This document shows positions 16,534 to 32,800 of a DNA stretch of 64,000 bases, piece after piece. Under the pieces are notes generated by a model, which worked only from the letters and a program-made list of their open reading frames with translations, had not been told where the DNA came from and made no database searches. Within the stretch, counting starts at the first letter, position 1, and each line of letters opens with the position of its first letter. The stretch covers positions 13,042,001-13,106,000 of the forward strand of contig NC_060110.1 in the NCBI RefSeq assembly GCF_021155765.1, read 5' to 3'. The translations under genes were made by a program, and so were the position numbers. The stretch is from Diprion similis. Its lineage: Eukaryota > Arthropoda > Insecta > Hymenoptera > Diprionidae.

Positions 16534-19500
16534 TTAGTAAGGTTGGTGCCTTTGGTTCTGGCGACCGCCACCCCTCTGCTTGCCGCCGTAGCCTGAGCCT
16601 CCTGAAACACACGCACGGCGCACTGTTAGCCCACGTGATTGGAACCCCTAAATCCTTCCACCGATCTCAGATATTTAGAAATCTATTCAACATTAATCTG
16701 GTTAACTCTACCACACGCACACAGTGACAACCAGTTGAACTAGAAAAAATAATGTTTACGAAAGAGGCTGGCACGATAATTAAAGGCAATAGAAATACTA
16801 CATAGAGGCTACAGGCTAAGGTAGTAAGCGTTCGGCTGTGTTCCTATTCCAGTGAGAATACTCTCCTCACTTGTACGATTTCTGGTCTTAAATGATTAAC
16901 TGAAATAAAATCGGAATTTTTAAAAAGAAATTACATACTTATGTTGCAACTGTAGGCACTCGTTCATACAGCTGTAGTCACATGTTGCATAAGAATGGAA
17001 TGACTAAAATGATTCTACATGAATTACACCAAAGAGCAGGTTGCCGTTCAAGTGTTTCGGCAAATTGACAATATTTCTAGTTGAATTAATGATTTGCTAC
17101 CTGAATTCAGGACAAAGTTATGATACTTTTCATCAATTTGTTATGGTTTCCTTTACTGTTGACAGAGCAGAAGATTCCAGGAACTTACAAGTTGCAAGTT
17201 TCAGTAATTCTTCCACTGGTAAAGGCACTGCTTTGATCTGTCTAAAAATTATTCATCTTTTCTGATCATTTTTACTGTGGATATGAGCCAACACTAGATG
17301 CAATGATTTTGAATGAACTGAAACTCAAAAGATGTATGGATAAAGGGCATGCAATCGTGAATATCATTGAAATCACAGAATCTAGAAATATTCAAGTACC
17401 TTGCAGGTCACCCTATCAAGCCTAAGTAAATATGTTAATTATTTGGCTCATAATTCTTAATCAAAAGACCAGAAACGTATATTCGGAATAGGTTGCTCCA
17501 TTGAAATGGAAACACAGGTTCGAGGGTACAGAACACAGGCAGAATTTAAAGTTTACTATGCTAACCAAGTTAATCGTGTCGTGAATATATCCCAAGCATT
17601 TTTTCTTTCATCAGATGGGATGTTTCAAAAATGAGGAAAAAATTTGTTTGATGCACGTCGAATGAATTGGAATCATACAAAGGATGGCAGTAAAAACTAA
17701 CTGGAATATAATGTTACAGTAAAATGGAAAATTCTTGATGAAAAAGTGATAGTGGAATGAGTATTTTCTGCCGAAAATGGCACGATATACAGATTCTTAC
17801 AGTAGAATTAACAGCTCTGTGTTAATTCTGTACAGATTTCATTTCACCTATTGGGCCACGGCGCATATTTACAACAGTATGTTCGCGTTTTGTTGTGTAA
17901 GTGAAACGTTTCACTAATTAAGTATTCTGAATTTGCATCAAAATACTTTTTCTGTAATAGTTTTCAAAATAATAAAATTAGAAATTGTATAAAAATCATA
18001 TTGCAATATAGGCCTTGGCATACATGATATACAGAGAACATTGGTGACGTGGACAAACTCATAGCTGATAGCAAAGTGTATGGAATCATTGTACATAGTC
18101 GTTTTCCTAATATTCTCTGTGTATTCATCTGAATGGAATAAATGAGTATATTGGTACGAATAGCACTGGTTTGGAATAGCTAGCAGTAACCACTGCATTG
18201 AGTTCCCTTAAAGCGCTTACTGTTTACTGAAGGTCCAGATAAGAATCAAGTGCAATACAAAATAATACTGGCAATTTAAATAGGTTGCTACCGATCACTT
18301 CGGTAAATAGTGAAAAATATTAAAATTGATCAAATGAATATTCATTTTCGTGTCATTGTTCTGTTTATACTCGTCGAATAACTTTGAATCTCATATTCTC
18401 ATTACTTTTGGCAAATTATCAATTTGCTAAATACACACAAACGGAAGTGCTTTCATTTAGTACAGCATACGACCGATAAAGCTGCCTTTACAGTAATTAT
18501 GGATCCGAAAATTGTATAGGCAGTATTGAGAATCGTCCACGTAGTTACAATATGACTTTCCAAATTATTTCGTAAATAGCAGCATAGCAATAGTTTTTAA
18601 TCGATCGAGTTGTTACAGATTGTGTTATTTGTAATGTGAATAAATTTCTCATATTATTTAGAGGCGGAGGAAAATATTAAGTGATAAAATTTTTGATTCA
18701 CGAGTGGGAAATGCTGAAAAACTACTTATTAGCAGGCACAAGGTTGGAGCAAGGAAATAAATCAATGAATGTCTCAACGGAATGAAGGAATTGAAAACAA
18801 TGAACAAAAAAGGAACGCTAAGGCGTACCTTTCCCCCGTGCACCACCGCGCCCACCACTGTAGCCACCATCGTAACTACCACCGCCATAGCCATAGCCGT
18901 CTGCATTTCATGGAACACACGGTATAAGTGATGCAGTCAGTATAGCCGTACTGTTCCAAAATTACTTTCAGCGCAATGTTCTCACAGTCAACGATTACGT
19001 AAATTTCAAATATTTGGTCATGGCCCTCTATCAATGATTTGACGGTGAATCTATTCACCAATATAATGTATTGTCAAGAACTTGCACGAAATAATGTGTC
19101 GATTTTTTCTCTATACGCGAATGCTAACAGATCACTGGAATAAAATTTCAGATTGAAAACGAGCCATATAATTTTTTGACTTTACAAACACGATTTTGAA
19201 TGTAAAGATTGATATTCATTGAAATAGTACAGTGATTTCCACAGACAAGCTGCAATTTACACAACACGCGATTTCAACACAAATTACTCGGGGGCATAAT
19301 GCCAATTTTCTTTCATTACGCAATCGTTTCCAAATACATTAACATCAAAATTATTTGTGATCCATTTGCAGGTCAATTGGTATTCTCTACACTGGTTTGG
19401 CTAAAGTGAAAGATCTGACATGCACTATTCTGGCATCACAAGGTCGATGAAAAACTAAAATGCTGGACTGTACTTTGAAATTCAAATTGATAAATACCTA

Positions 19501-22500
19501 TACTGTATTTATAAAGACCAGTAGATAAATAACTGAGATTCACACACAGAATCATCAGCCATAAATGTGACTGTCAGCATTTCAAGTAACTGTACAGCGT
19601 ACGTACTGAGAAAAAAGAATACCATCATCACGACTAATTATAAGTTTTCTCATCATGGATGCGATGCTCAAAACCAATCACTTGAATAAAATCCATGTTT
19701 TTCTCATAGCGCCGTGTGGTGTGCTGGTAGGTTTTCCATGTTTTTAAATGACTGTTTCATCAAGATGCAAATTCGAATACAATATACTATATGAGTATAG
19801 TAAACCATGAACATTCAATTTTCGTATGAAAATCAGCTGTTCATATGTTGTGACAAATTCAACTTATGGAAAAAGTTTAAGCTAATTGCAGATTCCCAGT
19901 TTTTCAATACTTTAAAAACGGACAAATTAGGGAAACCTCCTTAGTGCATACTTATTCTATAAGCCGAATTCGTCACTAATTGCTTTCCAACGTATAAAAA
20001 AAAAATATCGGATTTCATCAGGCAAGGATTCAATTCATTTCTCGAAATATGTTCCACGCCCAATTCGACTCATCTCATCTTTGTTTCTGATTGAATAGAA
20101 TGAAGATTACTCAAATGCTCATGTACCTATATAAAGTCACCGATAAGAAGCATCGCGAAAGGCTCATTCTAAGACAAAGCACGTAATTTGGCTAATTACT
20201 GCAATGAAATTACATGAAACGAAGAATTTCAAACAAAGACATGCAACGAAGGATCATGATAGGACCGAAAAGCAGGAACGAGGGGGTATACCATTTCGTA
20301 CTCCGTGTTATCCTGTACACTTTCTTTTTATATTTACCACATAATTGGTTTCATATATAATTATGTTACAGTGATTGCGTGGATTTGAAGTCAGTGAGTC
20401 TGCAGAATTTAAAGAAATTCTTTTGTACAAAACAATAAATTCTACTAATTCACTGACATCAATCAGTGAACGTATGAAAGATCGAATTTTTTTTTTCAAA
20501 TAAAGAAAATTCTACAACTTTTAAATGAAATGCTACTCTACATTAGTTTCAGAATGCATTTTTTTTCTGACAGGTTCTAAGAACACAACGAAACATCAAT
20601 TTTTCAATGCAACAAAAAATTGTACTAAGATTGAATCAATATCAAAAATAGTTGGAACAGCTCATCTGGCTTCACACTTTCACTGTTACATATTATATTC
20701 TCCTAGTGTATTGTTAATAAGTTATATATTCATTCATTTATAGCATATTAAGTAAATATATTATAACAAGGCATCAAAGAATATAACGTATATAAGATAT
20801 AAGTTAGTTGGTCACAGCGTAACACGATGGCTGATACCAGGGAAGTACATTAAAATGTTCAGTGTATGTTCTTGGCTCCAATCTCTTCAAGTATGTTCAA
20901 TACATAAACATTTCAATTGAATGTGTAAAGACGTGAAGATAAAGTAAATTTGAAAAAAAAGGAAAAAATTACCGTTTTTTTTAGAACTACAAAACGGAAC
21001 CAAAAGAATTAAATTTAAGTAATGAATATTTTAGTTCAGAAGTATTCGCAAAAAATGCGAACATAATTCAAATTTATGTGAACAGGCTCTTTATAGTAAA
21101 CTTGATTTGAGTTTTCTGAATGAGTGCGTGCGCTAAGGTGAAATACTTGAATATCTGGCAAAACAATTAGATTCAACAGTATTTAAAGGATTATAAACTC
21201 GAATAGCAGAGCAAAGTCTCATAGGGTTTTTTTCATTCAAAGTGTAAATATCCCATCTATATTCATTACAATATAGTCAATCGAACCCAAAACCATTTGC
21301 CTGTCTCAAGAGAGCACTATATACAGAGCAGACACATCAGCCATGTTGTTCCACCACCATTCGACATAAAAGTAGATTTCACGAACAGTACTAACAGGAC
21401 GGTGTTCTACGTAAGAGATCAATGTCGTAAATAACATTTAATAGGTAACCGCCGAAAGAAAAAAAAATATTAAAAGAAAAAAGAGAAAAAAAATTTGTCT
21501 TAAAATTTTACGATGAAAAAAAAACTTCCTTTTGTATACGCGCCATATTCAAGTCTGCATACATAGAATCATCCTGTTTAAAATCGTCTTAATATACAAG
21601 TTTCCTTCGTCTTAAAAATAGACCAACAATGGCGACTGCCGCGTATCTAGTGCTTCAATTAGTGGCCTGTCAGTTGCAAGAAGGAAAATCAATATATAAA
21701 TAAATATAAGTATGTCGTGTGTATAAAGAACTATGAAAGTTTTAGTAAAAATTTAATAGTCAATATTACCGTATCCACTGTAGTCGTAGCCACCATAACC
21801 GCCATAACCACCGCCATAATAGTCGTATCCACCTCCATAACCATCATAGCCACCTCCATATCCTCCCTGGCCGTAACCGCCGCCGTAACCGCCACCATAG
21901 CCGCCTTGACCCCAACCGCCTTGACCGCCAAATCCTCGGCCACGTCCCCCTCGACCTCCACGTCCGCCACGACCTCCAGCGCCGCTGCCGCGCATACCAC
22001 CCATCCCGTCGGGTTTGGGAGTAGCTTTCTTTACGTCAACCTACATCCAAGAAAATAATTCAATTTTATAAAGTTATGGTAAAATTCGTCATTTGCATTA
22101 TATGAAAAATATTCGTGCTTCCATCATGTTCACCAACATACTCCTTGGGGTGTGACATGATTGATACGATGTAATGATGAGCAAAGACGCATAAAACTGG
22201 AGGAAATATTGTAACCAGCTTTGTATATGATAACAAGACGGTTAGTGAAAAGTAAGCTCAGTTATCTTAACTGATCTCACGTGACAGTGCCATTCTGCCA
22301 TCCGAAGGTGTCCTAAGATATCTACATCATTGCTTACTTCAGGTTCAATGCATGAATATTTCTGATGAGGTCAGAATATGAAAGATAAGATAGGGTAACT
22401 ATCATAGGATCTAATTAAAAAAAAAAAAAAAAAAAATATTGTGAGGGAATTTAAGGTACTTATGTGTAATTGCAAATGATAATAGCAGGCTTGTTTAGTT

Positions 22501-25500
22501 TACAGTGACACATACCTCTTTTCCGTTAATAGTTTGTTTTGGTGTCTTCAATAGTTCATTTACTACTTGTTCCGATTCAAATGTGATGAAGCAGAACCCT
22601 TTCCTTTGGTTCTTTGTCTTATCAAACGGCATCTCTACTTCAACAATCTGCAAAAAATGGTATAAGAAAAACAATCAATACAAGTTGTGATAGCTTATTA
22701 AATCAATATTCTTCAAAAGCAGCTTTCTCGTCAGGTTTAAAAATAATCATCACATCAACTCAGTAGCAGAACTGACTAAAATGTTTTTGTCATCACAAAC
22801 TATCAAAATAAGCTAAATTCAAGAAAATATTCAGTAGTATCATCAAACAAAGGAGAAATAAAACTAAAACAAATAGGTCATTTGAGTCTCCAAGTGAAAT
22901 GGATATTAATAATAATCGTGGTATTTGGATGCCTACAAATCCATCATCAACAACATATTATTTTCTCACTATGATTTCGATGCTGAAGGCAGTCAACTAT
23001 TGTGGAAATACATTCACACGTGGAGTATCATGTTTATGAACGGTTTTGAACAATACTTCATATAAATACTTACAGAACCAAATTGGGAAAAGAAGTTTTT
23101 GATGTCGTCATCGGTCAGTTCTGTCGAAAGACCTCCAACAAAGATCTTTCCATGACGAGCTTTGGCTTTTTTGGGATCAACTTTTTTGTTGTTGATTACG
23201 TGATCACCAGCAGCCATGATCTAAAATAAAACAAATAGCGTTCGCATTAGACATTGCAGAGAGGAAAAAATTAAAACTTGACATTTCAAATAAAGCTCAG
23301 CTGCCAAATTGTCGTCACTTACACTCAGTAGCAGAACTGACATTTTTTGTATCATCACATTAACTAGTTATTTCATTGTGTCAAATATTGGAAAAGAATA
23401 TATGTTTCTTACGAACAGAATAGTTACCTTATCTAGCGATTCTGCTCTGGCAAAAACGATGAACGCGAATCCTCGAGACCGTCCGGTGTTCGGATCTGTC
23501 TTGACGTTGATACTTTCAATATCACCATATGAACCAAAGTGATCTCTTAGCTCCTCTGAAAATTGAATGGTAAATCAACATTGAAATTTGAGGTCTTGAG
23601 TCAATACATTATCATTATGTTAAAAGTTAAACTAGAATAAAAAGTACTCAGTATTTCTATAACAATCTCACGTAACAGTGCCATTCTGTTATCTGAAGGT
23701 GTCCTAAGATGAAACATCATTGTAAGCATAGTTTTTCTACCCAGTTAATGAAAATTTTGAGTCTGACTATAAGATGAGGCTCTAGACAACATGACTTTTA
23801 AAAACAACACATTAGAAACCACACTTACTGTCAGTAGTTTCCCAGCTGAGTCCTCCGACGAACAATTTTCTGCGAATGACAAAAATAGAAGACATTAAAT
23901 TAAATTAGTGAAAATTATTTATATTTACAACGTTCAAATTCGTTAACTTTGTAAACTGCTAAGGAATTTAACTTCATAGGGAATATTTTACAACATAAAT
24001 TGTTTCATGCTTGTGATATTTGGATGTCAGCAAATTCAAATATCTCCGCATACTGTGCAAAAAAAAGATCTGCAATGAAAATGATGAGAGGTACGTAGCA
24101 TAGCAGTATTCAGATAGTTATTTTTAAAATAGTAGCTTCGTCAATAATTAATATTGAAAGCCGCGTACCACCTGGATATGTAACTTTTACTGTGAAACAC
24201 ATTTTTATACAGTGCAGCATGTTGTATTATTTTTCCCCAAAAATGATTTCAGACAAATTTTCATCTATCACTCTTTTGTTTTTCGTACTTCTTTTCTTAT
24301 ATTTAGTTTAATTATTGTTCAAGCTACAAATTTTGTGATTACAGTAAAAATAATAAAAAGTTTCTATGTACCTATCATTGAGAGACTCCTGGTTCGCTCC
24401 ACCCGACCTGCAAAGCAATTCAATGATTTTATTTTACCAATGGAATTTTCAACTGTAGGTTTACTAGACTAAATGAAGCGAAGAATTTGTATTATATTTC
24501 CCATTTCTCAGATTGAAAAATGACTTGACATGAAAAGAAATGCTTCGACTTAACCCCTGGAAGTATCTAGAATAACTGTAAAAATGTTAATTTCTTTATT
24601 TTCAGTTTTACCAATTACTAGTTACATAATATACAAATTTGCATAGGGCTATTATCGGAAATGGGGTAATGGGCAACTTTTCAAAACAATACAACAAAAT
24701 AGAAAATTTATTATATATGTATTGTACGATGTTGATAATATATTTTTATATATAGAGGTATGGATATTTAATTTTAATGTTAGTATAGACAGCCGTAACA
24801 TAACTGTACAGGCTGCAATTTTGAATAAAGTTGTGTTTGGGTGAAAGAAGGAGGGAAAAATGGAAAAAATATTCCAATACCTAAGGCTATGTATATATCA
24901 TACGAACCTTGCATATATAGAATCAGTAGGTTTGCATTTGTTCAAAAGATAAAATATGAAAACAATTCGAGAATGCTGTTTTAGACGCATTTGAAATTTC
25001 ACATGTGCATTTGCCAATCGTGAAACTTCTTTAAAAGAAAAAAAAAAAAAGAAAAAAAAACTGCCTAGCAATGACGAAAAAAACTTGAGAAAAACACATG
25101 AAAAATAGTGTGCTGAGCGAAATTTTCACAACAGTCAGTGAAACCCGAGCAATACAGTTACAACTCCAGTTGACATACAGCTGCGCCTAAAGGAAACAAG
25201 ATTCAACTTTGCCAAGTTGGAACAAGACCGTTGATTAGCCCAAATAATTGACAATTGGTAGATAGGTACTGCAACTCGATTGAAAAGCTAAAAAAATTGT
25301 TTATCATTATTTAAATTATTATTTTTCATTGAGTCGTGATTATATATTTCTCTTTCTATTCAAATTAAAGTTGTGATATTTTATATCTCTCTTTCTCTCA
25401 GTGTGGTGATTATCTGTATCGATAATTTGTTTATATCATCTAGGGCTGGTGATAAATACCGTGGGCACCAGTCACTCGCCGGTACTCAGTTGTTGGTCGG

Positions 25501-29109: not shown

Positions 29110-29776
29110 ATGCCCGAAGGAACAAAGGTAATGCTGATTGATTTGTGCCATCGTCCCTGATCTATTAATTATTCTGAATTTCCCAATGTTCAATTGACTA
29201 GAATATTCAATTACAGAATTTAAAACTGCGTGATGTTTGGCGAACATGCAATAAAATTAGGGCTGCAATATTTCGGGTTGGGCTCAATCTTTGGGACTAT
29301 TACAAACCTTTGGATCCCAACAATAATAGCCTCCTCTCAGGTATAAATCCTCTTTGAATATATTTTAGTAGACGTCAGGGTATTAGGAAACCCAACCATA
29401 TAACCTCCCTCGTTTCGCACTACGTTTCCTAGTACTACTATGTACTACAGGGTGTCTCAAAGAATTCTACGCACTATACTTCGCATATTGTTCCTACGCG
29501 GATCAAATTATTTTATGCTAAAAGTACTTCACTCGAAAAAGCTTAATTGACGAAGAACCACGTATGTACAATGTCCTACCTCTTACATACACGTGAATTA
29601 CAGTATAGCACCGAGTGCTGCGAAATGTATTAGATTGTAATGAATCCGTGGTCTAATAATAAATACGAAGCGAGAACGTTTTAACACCCATGTACGTGTC
29701 ACGAATTTGTCGATTAGGGAACGGATTCGCAGAATACAAATATGCTACTTGTGTACAGGTACAATGTGGGAGTGGC

Positions 29777-29844
<68 letters not shown>

Positions 29845-32800
29845 ACTCACTAATCCTAATAGAGGATATAGAATACACATATATATGTACCTTAGCTGAC
29901 CATTAGCGGAATTGAAATTGGCAATCCATTTTATCGCATTTCCAAATTGCAAATAATTTGTACAAAAGTTATAAAATATAACTACAAGAGTTCATCAATG
30001 TTTTTTGTAATAATTTTTGCAGAATCAAAATTTGTCTCGGTTCTGGCAGGGCCTCTTCGAGGTCCTATCGGTCTATCGGATCAGGAAATTGGAGACTTGG
30101 CTGACTATTTCAGAGTTCAGGACGGCCGGATCCTGTACACGCAGTTTTGCCAAGTTATTCACGACAGTGGTGCGATATCAGATCACTCGTAATATGAAAA
30201 CATATCGAACCGTTCAAGATACAAGTAAACCTCCGAAGTAGCGGCCATCAATGAAATGCCTATTGTTCTAACAGGATTTTTTCTCATTCACTGTTATTTT
30301 TAGAACTCGGGTATTCAGAACGTAAGTTAGGCCGATGGATATAGCCGAGTCGTATAAATTTTGCCGAAGCGATTAGCGTTATTTTAAGAAAGCCCAGGTT
30401 TACCACTCAAATCCTCCGTCCCGTTATCCGTTACCCTATACCTGAGGTACATTCTCAACTCAAGAGTCTAGACACACGCGGGTAGATGCGCACCTCTACA
30501 CATTCAATCAGCAAAAAAATAATTTGTTTCTTACAAATTATACGATGCCAGATTTGATTGTATTCAGCTGCGTATTTATCATTCGAAATGATTCGATTAA
30601 CTGAGCTGTTACAAAAGAAATCGTACATATTAACCGCAAGTCAAAGCATTGTACTTATTAAGCCACTCAGCAATAAATCTCAGGTGAAAAGAGTGCTGTG
30701 GCTGATGACAATTACTGAACTTATAAATAAGAGAATTTAGATGAATGTGGTCCTAATAACGTTGATTGAATTTTAGCTTCATAGATATTACAAAGCCATT
30801 TTGATATAATGGAATACGGTTCTATAGCTCTTGGTTTCTGAATGACCTGCTTTTTGCTGTTGAGTTCAAATTAATTTCCTTCTGGCTGCACATTGCTGGC
30901 GATGAACAAAAAGATGATAAGTTTCCAAGCGATAATATTAACTATAAAACAGTGATCTATACACCTTCGTCAACTTCGAGATTATAGCTCTCTCCCCACG
31001 TGTCTATTGTTGGAGAGGACATTGCCTCCACTACCGGAAGTTTTTAAATATTTAAGCAAGCATGCCTGTACGCTGTACAAAAAATGTATTCGAACACAAA
31101 ATAGGCGAATATTGTCTCAGGATAATGTTTCCTTTGATCGAATAAAATTCAATTATCGAAATACACATTCCATCTAGACTAAAAATTATCATTCTCAATC
31201 ATATCAAATGAATGAACTCTGAACCGATCTATGAATGAAATCAAAGCGAATGAGATGCCACTAGAATAACATGTAAACTGACTTTGAGTATGTTTATTTT
31301 TCAATGTATTACGCACTTACGCTGTGATCCAGATTCGCGTAACGTCCAACCTAATCACTTTCACACGAATAACTTATTGGTTAAACATTGTAGTTCCTGA
31401 ATTTGGAAAAAATAAGTCACTAGTGACGGGATTAGAATGGGAAGATCCTATGCATGTAAACCGACTCAGTCACACCGAACACAGAAGGTTGTCGATCATC
31501 ATCACACAAATCGCAGTTCTCATCAACAAACGGAAACTGATCCTGCGACCTTATTTCCAAGACTACGAATTGGTATGTTAGAGAAAAACGTTTACTATGT
31601 GGCAAAAGTGTCGCGTAGTAAAAAAGCTAAAGCTAAAGGTTGAATAGTCTACAGCCAAGTCGTGACATTGCATACATCGTTGATAATATTATAAATTAAT
31701 GAAAGTGGCAGCTATCTCGCGTAACCTTGTCTCTTCCCCTGTTTTAGGTAGCAAAAAATGCTGGGACAGTGACCTTCGCCCATTTTGCAAGAGTCTTAAA
31801 CTTTCTGGGCATCGTGCTGGCTGCCGATGAGTTTAATTTGTTGGTAAAGAGATTTGTGAAGGACAGTTACACTGTGAATTACGTAGCTTTCGTCAAGGCA
31901 GTGGAGGATGCTCAGAACTACATGGACCAGCACGGGATGTTGGATTTGGGAGGCGTACGTTTATATCTCGATCACTGTTCGAATTTCCTTTTCCAGTCAA
32001 TACCGATAACTCCAGAATTTTGAGCCTGCAGAGATTTTTGCGCTATGCTGAAACTTTATGCCTATTTTCGACTGAACATCTTACAGAATTTATTGGATCA
32101 ATTTCCTGGAAGAATCATCACTGCAGAATTACCAAAATTGCCAAGGCCAGAGATAGGTCGGGTATTGCCAAGTGAAGTGTTCGAACGGCAATCTGTATTT
32201 CATCCTGTAATGGAAAAACGTAAAGAGTTAATGCCACTCAGGGAAGTCTTGCAAAGGGTTCAACGCCACGTCTTGGAGCACCGTATTCGTGTAAACGAAT
32301 TTTTCAAGGTATGAGATTTTAATCAAGATCTCATCCTCGGTCACAAATCTAAAGGCTAGCACTATGCAGTCTAAAGTACAACGCATATATCTTCTTACGG
32401 ATTATCATCAGCGCGAGGATCACTGTTTTTATTTATTTATTTATTTCTTTTTCTTGCAACATAGGATTTCGATCCCTTGAACTGTGGACGGGTAACAGTA
32501 TCACAATTCCGAAGGGCTCTTGATGGAATGCAAATATCAGCTATGGCCCGCCTGTACTTAGCTGAACCAGAAATCGAAAGCATTATTGCGTTCTATACCG
32601 ACTGCAATGATCCGGAGAGAGTTAACTGGCGGACGTTCGAAGATGACTTGGATCAAGGTAAGCTGGGTCTTCAAACATTATTAAATATCTGGCTTTAAAC
32701 ATACATAAAATTTTTATGGTTCGTCATTTTCTGAGGGGATATTTGTAACTACCCCACTGCCATTTGGATAAGGATTTACCTAGTTTCTTGCTTGAGTCAA

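Follow-up and report, generated by a model that had tools for sequence, protein, structure and literature searches.

Four consecutive introns of a squid-type heterogeneous nuclear ribonucleoprotein (hnRNP) gene of Diprion similis each contain one sense-strand element, and the sequence comparisons support well the assignment of these elements to two duplicated families of box C/D small nucleolar RNAs (snoRNAs), one SNORD38-like (A) and the other SNORD58-like (B). The gene is located in a 64,000-nucleotide stretch of contig NC_060110.1 (assembly GCF_021155765.1, positions 13,042,001 to 13,106,000), which is called the window. The elements are very probably intron-encoded box C/D snoRNAs, two SNORD38 paralogues (A1 and A2) and two SNORD58 paralogues (B1 and B2), which guide the 2'-O-methylation of 28S ribosomal RNA (rRNA). 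All coordinates are window positions, and each element is delimited by the first base of its box C and the last base of its box D. The features are, in the direction of transcription:

21753–24407, minus strand: host gene, identified coding exons (interrupted span; first exon not located)
23556–23828, minus strand: host intron of B1, 273 nt, GT...AG
23648–23720, minus strand: B1, SNORD58-like; box C ATGATGT 23720–23714, D' CAGA 23695–23692, box D CTGA 23651–23648
23221–23427, minus strand: host intron of A1, 207 nt, GT...AG
23297–23358, minus strand: A1, SNORD38-like; box C GTGATGA 23358–23352, D' CTGA 23328–23325, box D CTGA 23300–23297
22648–23073, minus strand: host intron of A2, 426 nt, GT...AG
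22731–22796, minus strand: A2, SNORD38-like; box C GTGATGA 22796–22790, D' CTGA 22763–22760, box D CTGA 22734–22731
22041–22515, minus strand: host intron of B2, 475 nt, GT...AG
22258–22330, minus strand: B2, SNORD58-like; box C ATGATGT 22330–22324, D' CGGA 22304–22301, box D CTGA 22261–22258

Boxes C and D are present in all four elements at the spacing of some 50–100 nt that characterizes box C/D snoRNAs, with 62–73 nt from box C to box D. The first-pass annotation of the window had proposed one sense-strand box C/D element in each of four consecutive introns, in the order B-A-A'-B', and had divided the four snoRNAs into two duplicated families. The arrangement is confirmed by the boxes and the comparison of the introns, and the classification is well supported, also by the Rfam matches and the pairing with 28S rRNA. 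The description of the boxes as RTGATGA-type box C and CTGA box D applies to every box D and to box C of the A copies, whereas box C is ATGATGT in two of the four elements, both of them B copies. Between the last base of box D and the 3' end of the intron there are 92 nt in B1, 76 nt in A1, and 83 nt in A2, so that the approximately 77–93 nt given earlier for three of the four introns was right; in B2, the distance is 217 nt. The favoured spacing between box D and the acceptor in vertebrates is about 70–90 nt. The flanks of B2 form an 8-bp terminal stem (AAGTAAGC/GCTTACTT), and this stem, the strongest of the four, may offset the large distance of B2 from the acceptor.

A permissive Rfam scan matched SNORD38 to A2 (34.4 bits) and A1 (33.4 bits) and SNORD58 to B2 (26.7 bits) and B1 (24.2 bits), all on the minus strand; the gathering cut-offs are 44 bits for SNORD38 (RF00212) and 42 bits for SNORD58 (RF00151). 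In the cmscan alignments, CAGUUCUGCUACUGA is matched letter for letter in both A copies, as is UCUUAGGACACCUU in both B copies. The A elements share with SNORD38 (U38; also sn1185, RF01157) the C, D', C', D layout, the CAGUUCUGCUACUGA guide with its D' box, and the same kind of 28S adenosine predicted by the +5 rule. In contrast to SNORD38, they have an hnRNP gene instead of RPS8 as host, weak terminal stems, and scores about 10 bits below the Rfam cut-off. The B elements have the UCUUAGGACACCUU guide and the same kind of 28S site in common with SNORD58 (U58a/b), and differ from it in having an hnRNP gene instead of RPL17 as host, ATGATGT as box C, a conserved additional hairpin of 6 bp in the D'-C' interval, and scores 15–18 bits below the cut-off. 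Weak Rfam matches of SNORD57 and ZEB2_AS1_2 that overlap the elements were set aside as probable chance.

The rRNA used for the pairing analysis was taken from the same genome as 18S, 5.8S, and 28S pieces. In all four elements, the D' guide forms 12–13 contiguous pairs with the 28S rRNA of the species, including one or two G-U pairs, and the duplex starts one nucleotide from D'. As far as pairing is concerned, the complementarity to rRNA of at least 9–10 nt upstream of D or D' that distinguishes a box C/D guide is found in each of them. According to the +5 rule, both copies of family A point to the A in AGCAGAACUGG (AGC[A]GAACUGG) of 28S rRNA, and both copies of family B to the U in CAGGUGUCC (CAGG[U]GUCC). 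Chicken U38 is listed for an A of 28S rRNA, and U58a/b for U-3682 and G-3683 (PMC2653536). The predicted sites appear to be the U38 and U58a/b sites of chicken, which were equated through the shared guides and not through an alignment of the rRNAs. In human numbering, we take them to be A1858 (SNORD38) and U4197/G4198 (SNORD58).

A search for guides at box D yielded one in B1, with ten pairs to 28S rRNA including one G-U, and no second guide was found at box D of B2, A1, or A2. Because a box D guide is present in B1 alone, the proposed guide function is restricted to the D' guides. A1 and A2 each form one more duplex, with different places of the rRNA, at sites that resemble a box (GTGA and TTGA).

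The introns were compared in six pairs, each against 300 shuffles, and just two of the pairs exceed their shuffles. The introns of B1 and B2 have a local score of 91, with a best shuffle of 31, and those of A1 and A2 a score of 54, with a best shuffle of 36. Elsewhere in these introns, no score exceeds 19 (B1/B2) or 29 (A1/A2), values inside the shuffle range. Both parts of the earlier observation, that the first intron resembles the fourth and the second the third, and that the likeness is limited to the snoRNA bodies, are borne out by these scores.

The likeness is distributed unevenly within the elements. B1 and B2 are identical at 9 of 9 positions of the box C segment, 18 of 19 of the guide with D', 24 of 27 of the D'-C' hairpin with C', and 5 of 6 of the box D segment, and their linkers are identical at 0 of 4 and 5 of 11 positions and their 5' flanks at 4 of 13. 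A1 and A2 are identical in box C (7/7) and in the guide with D' (17/17), and share six of the seven positions of C'; their linkers agree at 6 of 13 and 3 of 6 positions, and the 5' flanks at 9 of 18. After C', 11 of 35 positions are identical, in a stretch where the alignment does not place one D box opposite the other. The conservation of boxes and guides next to drifted linkers suggests that both copies of each family have been kept. The nested order B-A-A'-B' carries little weight and needs no explanation, since two pairs permit three arrangements only.

Both B copies contain a 6-bp hairpin with the loop AATGGCA between D' and C' (23673–23691 in B1 and 22282–22300 in B2, minus strand), which is absent from the SNORD58 model. 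Its pairing is retained in both copies through one two-sided and one one-sided change. The longest Watson-Crick match of the hairpin to rRNA is 7 nt for its segments and 8 nt for ACGTGAGAT, lengths to which no chance level is attached.

The guides of both families are confined to the host gene in a pattern search of the genome (269,008,206 bases in 60 contigs). The pattern of box C and guide B was found at two places, both in the host gene, with one match of the reversed-pattern control. The pattern of box C, guide A, and D' was likewise found at two places, both in the host gene, with no match of the control. When up to two mismatches were allowed in the guide with D' (19–20 nt), nothing further was found for B genome-wide, and A gave one extra place (L033), without a box C in the preceding 60 bases. 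By this search, in which guides to these sites that have diverged further would be missed and very common words are skipped, the genome holds no source of either guide outside the host gene.

The chance level of such elements was estimated with a scan of both strands of the 64 kb for box C with at most one mismatch, D, D', and an 8-nt Watson-Crick guide core, and 40 first-order Markov windows served as the control; the recount used the same seed. At a score of at least 20, the ten rows correspond to seven distinct guide boxes, as compared with a Markov mean of 3.2 and a maximum of 9. At a score of at least 22, five distinct guide boxes remain, four of them in the elements and the fifth at 32315; the Markov windows average 1.1 with at most 4, and none of the 40 reached five. 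In the remaining introns of the host gene, the scan gave no other snoRNA: apart from the four elements, nothing in this gene has a score of at least 20 except an alternative box C of A2 at 22846. The occurrence of four matches within less than 2 kb, one per intron, all in the sense orientation and belonging to two named families, is stronger evidence than the scan.

The match at 32315 belongs to a lone C/D-like element on the minus strand, with box C AGGATGA at 32337, the guide box at 32315, D' CTCA, and 11 bp of pairing to 18S rRNA. It is probably due to chance, because about 1.1 such matches are expected per 64 kb.

Several observations weigh against the identification of the elements as snoRNA guides. 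Rfam at the gathering cut-off gives no match in the window, as all four elements fall below the curated scores, and box C and the D' boxes of both B copies are imperfect. The terminal stem is clear in B2 alone, where shuffled flanks pair equally well in 3.5% of cases, whereas B1 (21.5%), A1 (22.5%), and A2 (12%) are indistinct from shuffled flanks; the fold stability of all four elements is ordinary (z of −0.10, −1.36, 0.54, and −0.81). The 3' flanks of B1 and B2 are alike at 8 of 13 positions, so drift has not affected every flank. The covariation in the B hairpin comes from two sequences and is equalled in 240 of 500 shuffles, so that this control is uninformative. With two mismatches, the reversed controls of the genome search gave three matches for B as against two real ones, and one for A as against three. 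Furthermore, the window scan was written once the elements were known and is a check rather than a blind discovery.

Some features would be expected if one copy of each pair were a decaying duplicate, so that one SNORD38-like and one SNORD58-like snoRNA did the work. A1 and A2 differ ahead of box D and have weak terminal stems, the terminal stem of B1 has 3 bp by eye as opposed to 8 bp in B2, and B2 is unusually distant from its acceptor (217 nt). However, the D' guides and the boxes show few or no differences between the two copies despite the drifted linkers, and a neutral copy of such age is unlikely to be so conserved. The B hairpin, too, keeps its pairing through a two-sided change. The decay of one copy per pair is therefore considered rather unlikely.

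The location of the elements in introns of a gene for an RNA-binding protein raises the alternative that their main function is in cis, in the structure of the introns or the regulation of squid pre-mRNA splicing, rather than in the guiding of rRNA modification; intronic snoRNAs with cis roles are the subject of a review (PMC11028025). Nevertheless, conservation falls on the C/D boxes and on the guides complementary to 28S rRNA, the predicted +5 nucleotides are at sites that match those of known guides, and pairing between introns is unnecessary to explain the elements, which makes a chiefly cis function very unlikely. That the likeness is due to chance or to a mobile repeat in common is disfavoured to the point of being scarcely credible. 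Short box motifs are common, and a fixed-spacing ATGATGA...CTGA pattern occurs at 210 places in the genome, as compared with 70 for its reverse, but the scores of the intron pairs are far beyond those of shuffles and both families match Rfam snoRNAs. In addition, each guide with its box C was found at two places only, in contrast to what is expected of a dispersed repeat.

If the elements are expressed as intron-encoded guides, they would follow the usual route of intronic C/D snoRNAs, in which the hnRNP pre-mRNA is spliced, the intron is debranched, the RNA is assembled with the proteins of C/D small nucleolar ribonucleoproteins, and exonucleases trim the ends. The stretch before D' would guide the 2'-O-methylation of 28S rRNA at the bracketed nucleotide of AGC[A]GAACUGG (A) or CAGG[U]GUCC (B). 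The two copies of each family most likely go back to an intragenic (cis-) duplication within the host gene that placed a copy in a second intron. The duplications would be old enough for the linkers and most flanks to have drifted while the boxes and guides stayed. It is improbable, taken as a whole, that the host gene is the sole source of both guides, that two methylations of 28S rRNA are thus coupled to squid splicing, that the duplicates insure against alternative splicing, and that the B hairpin (loop AAUGGCA) has a role of its own.

The host gene, judging from its translated sequence, is an insect-type gene for a squid/hnRNP A/B-D type protein. The exons joined by hand encode 256 residues, in which two RRMs are followed by a Gly-rich tail, the order of parts that characterizes squid-type proteins. 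RRM_1 matches the protein in two stretches (E = 3.2e-37), its best solved relative is hnRNP D-like (E = 1.1e-53), and the Gly-rich tail was read directly from the sequence. The gene is putatively squid (sqd), a name taken from the first-pass annotation and from the Drosophila protein. By eye, the exon at approximately 24407–24372 is preceded by an acceptor and lacks an ATG, which indicates at least one exon further upstream. The introns numbered 2–5 in the first-pass annotation are consecutive, as stated, but the numbers are possibly one too low. A Gly/Tyr-rich reading frame at 18830–18903 on the minus strand, downstream of the sqd stop, resembles an alternative last exon by eye. Drosophila squid has alternative 3' ends.

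Several snoRNAs in the introns of one gene, and paralogues in neighbouring introns, are known from other systems. In chicken RPS8, intron 1 holds U39/U55, introns 2 and 3 hold U40/U46, and introns 4 and 5 hold U38; the two U38 copies in neighbouring introns of one host resemble the A pair (PMC2653536). Chicken U58 is present in introns 4–6 of RPL17, with another copy in intron 1 of the same gene and two in a second host, so that, as for family B, several copies share one host (PMC2653536). Almost all chicken snoRNA paralogues stem from intragenic duplication, and the yeast counterpart of SNORD38 is snR61 (PMC2653536). In Drosophila S2 cells, 95% of the expressed snoRNAs are intronic, and lola, Arpc2, and dom carry clusters of them in their introns (PMC13228274).

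Since chicken RPS8 and RPL17 show paired cis-duplicates, the kind of locus is already known: the four elements are new members of known snoRNA families that most likely arose by the known process of intragenic duplication, and the host gene is what differs. The difference in host is a clear one, as two guide families that are separate in chicken ribosomal-protein genes are united in one hnRNP gene here. The first-pass annotation had considered a multi-snoRNA hnRNP host unusual and undescribed. No squid or hnRNP A/B-type snoRNA host is among the literature matches listed, with the Drosophila catalogues PMC11014333 and PMC1370813 outside their scope, so that this part of the claim is unproven; the paired copies are ordinary, and the implied novelty is only partly supported. 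The word sqd is absent from the main text, as distinct from the tables, of the S2-cell study (PMC13228274), and neither sqd nor squid turned up in a term search of the main texts of PMC4430873 and PMC5932544. The locus fits the view, argued in PMC3511168, that snoRNAs move among broadly expressed hosts, and it is of a sort that the curated cut-offs of Rfam miss. The understanding of how snoRNAs work is unchanged by it.

The target of family A occurs at three places in the genome, and that of family B at two exact places and three with one mismatch; L021, which is among these, is not rRNA-like by eye. The three target places that were scanned by Rfam (L011, L019, and L020) are large-subunit (LSU) rRNA. 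The 8-kb pieces of C5, C9, and C20 with the A target (L011, 2479–3026; L014, L015, and L016) do not contain the B target, which is present on C14 and C34, and L011 has LSU rRNA matches on the opposite strand as well. The copies of ribosomal DNA seen in the assembly look broken or rearranged.

Elsewhere in the window, matches of mir families (mir-1277, mir-3149, and others) at 29767–29893, below the curated cut-offs, are positioned on or beside a long AT/GT simple repeat. TTAGG telomere arrays, consistent with an insect genome, are present at two of the three contig ends inspected.

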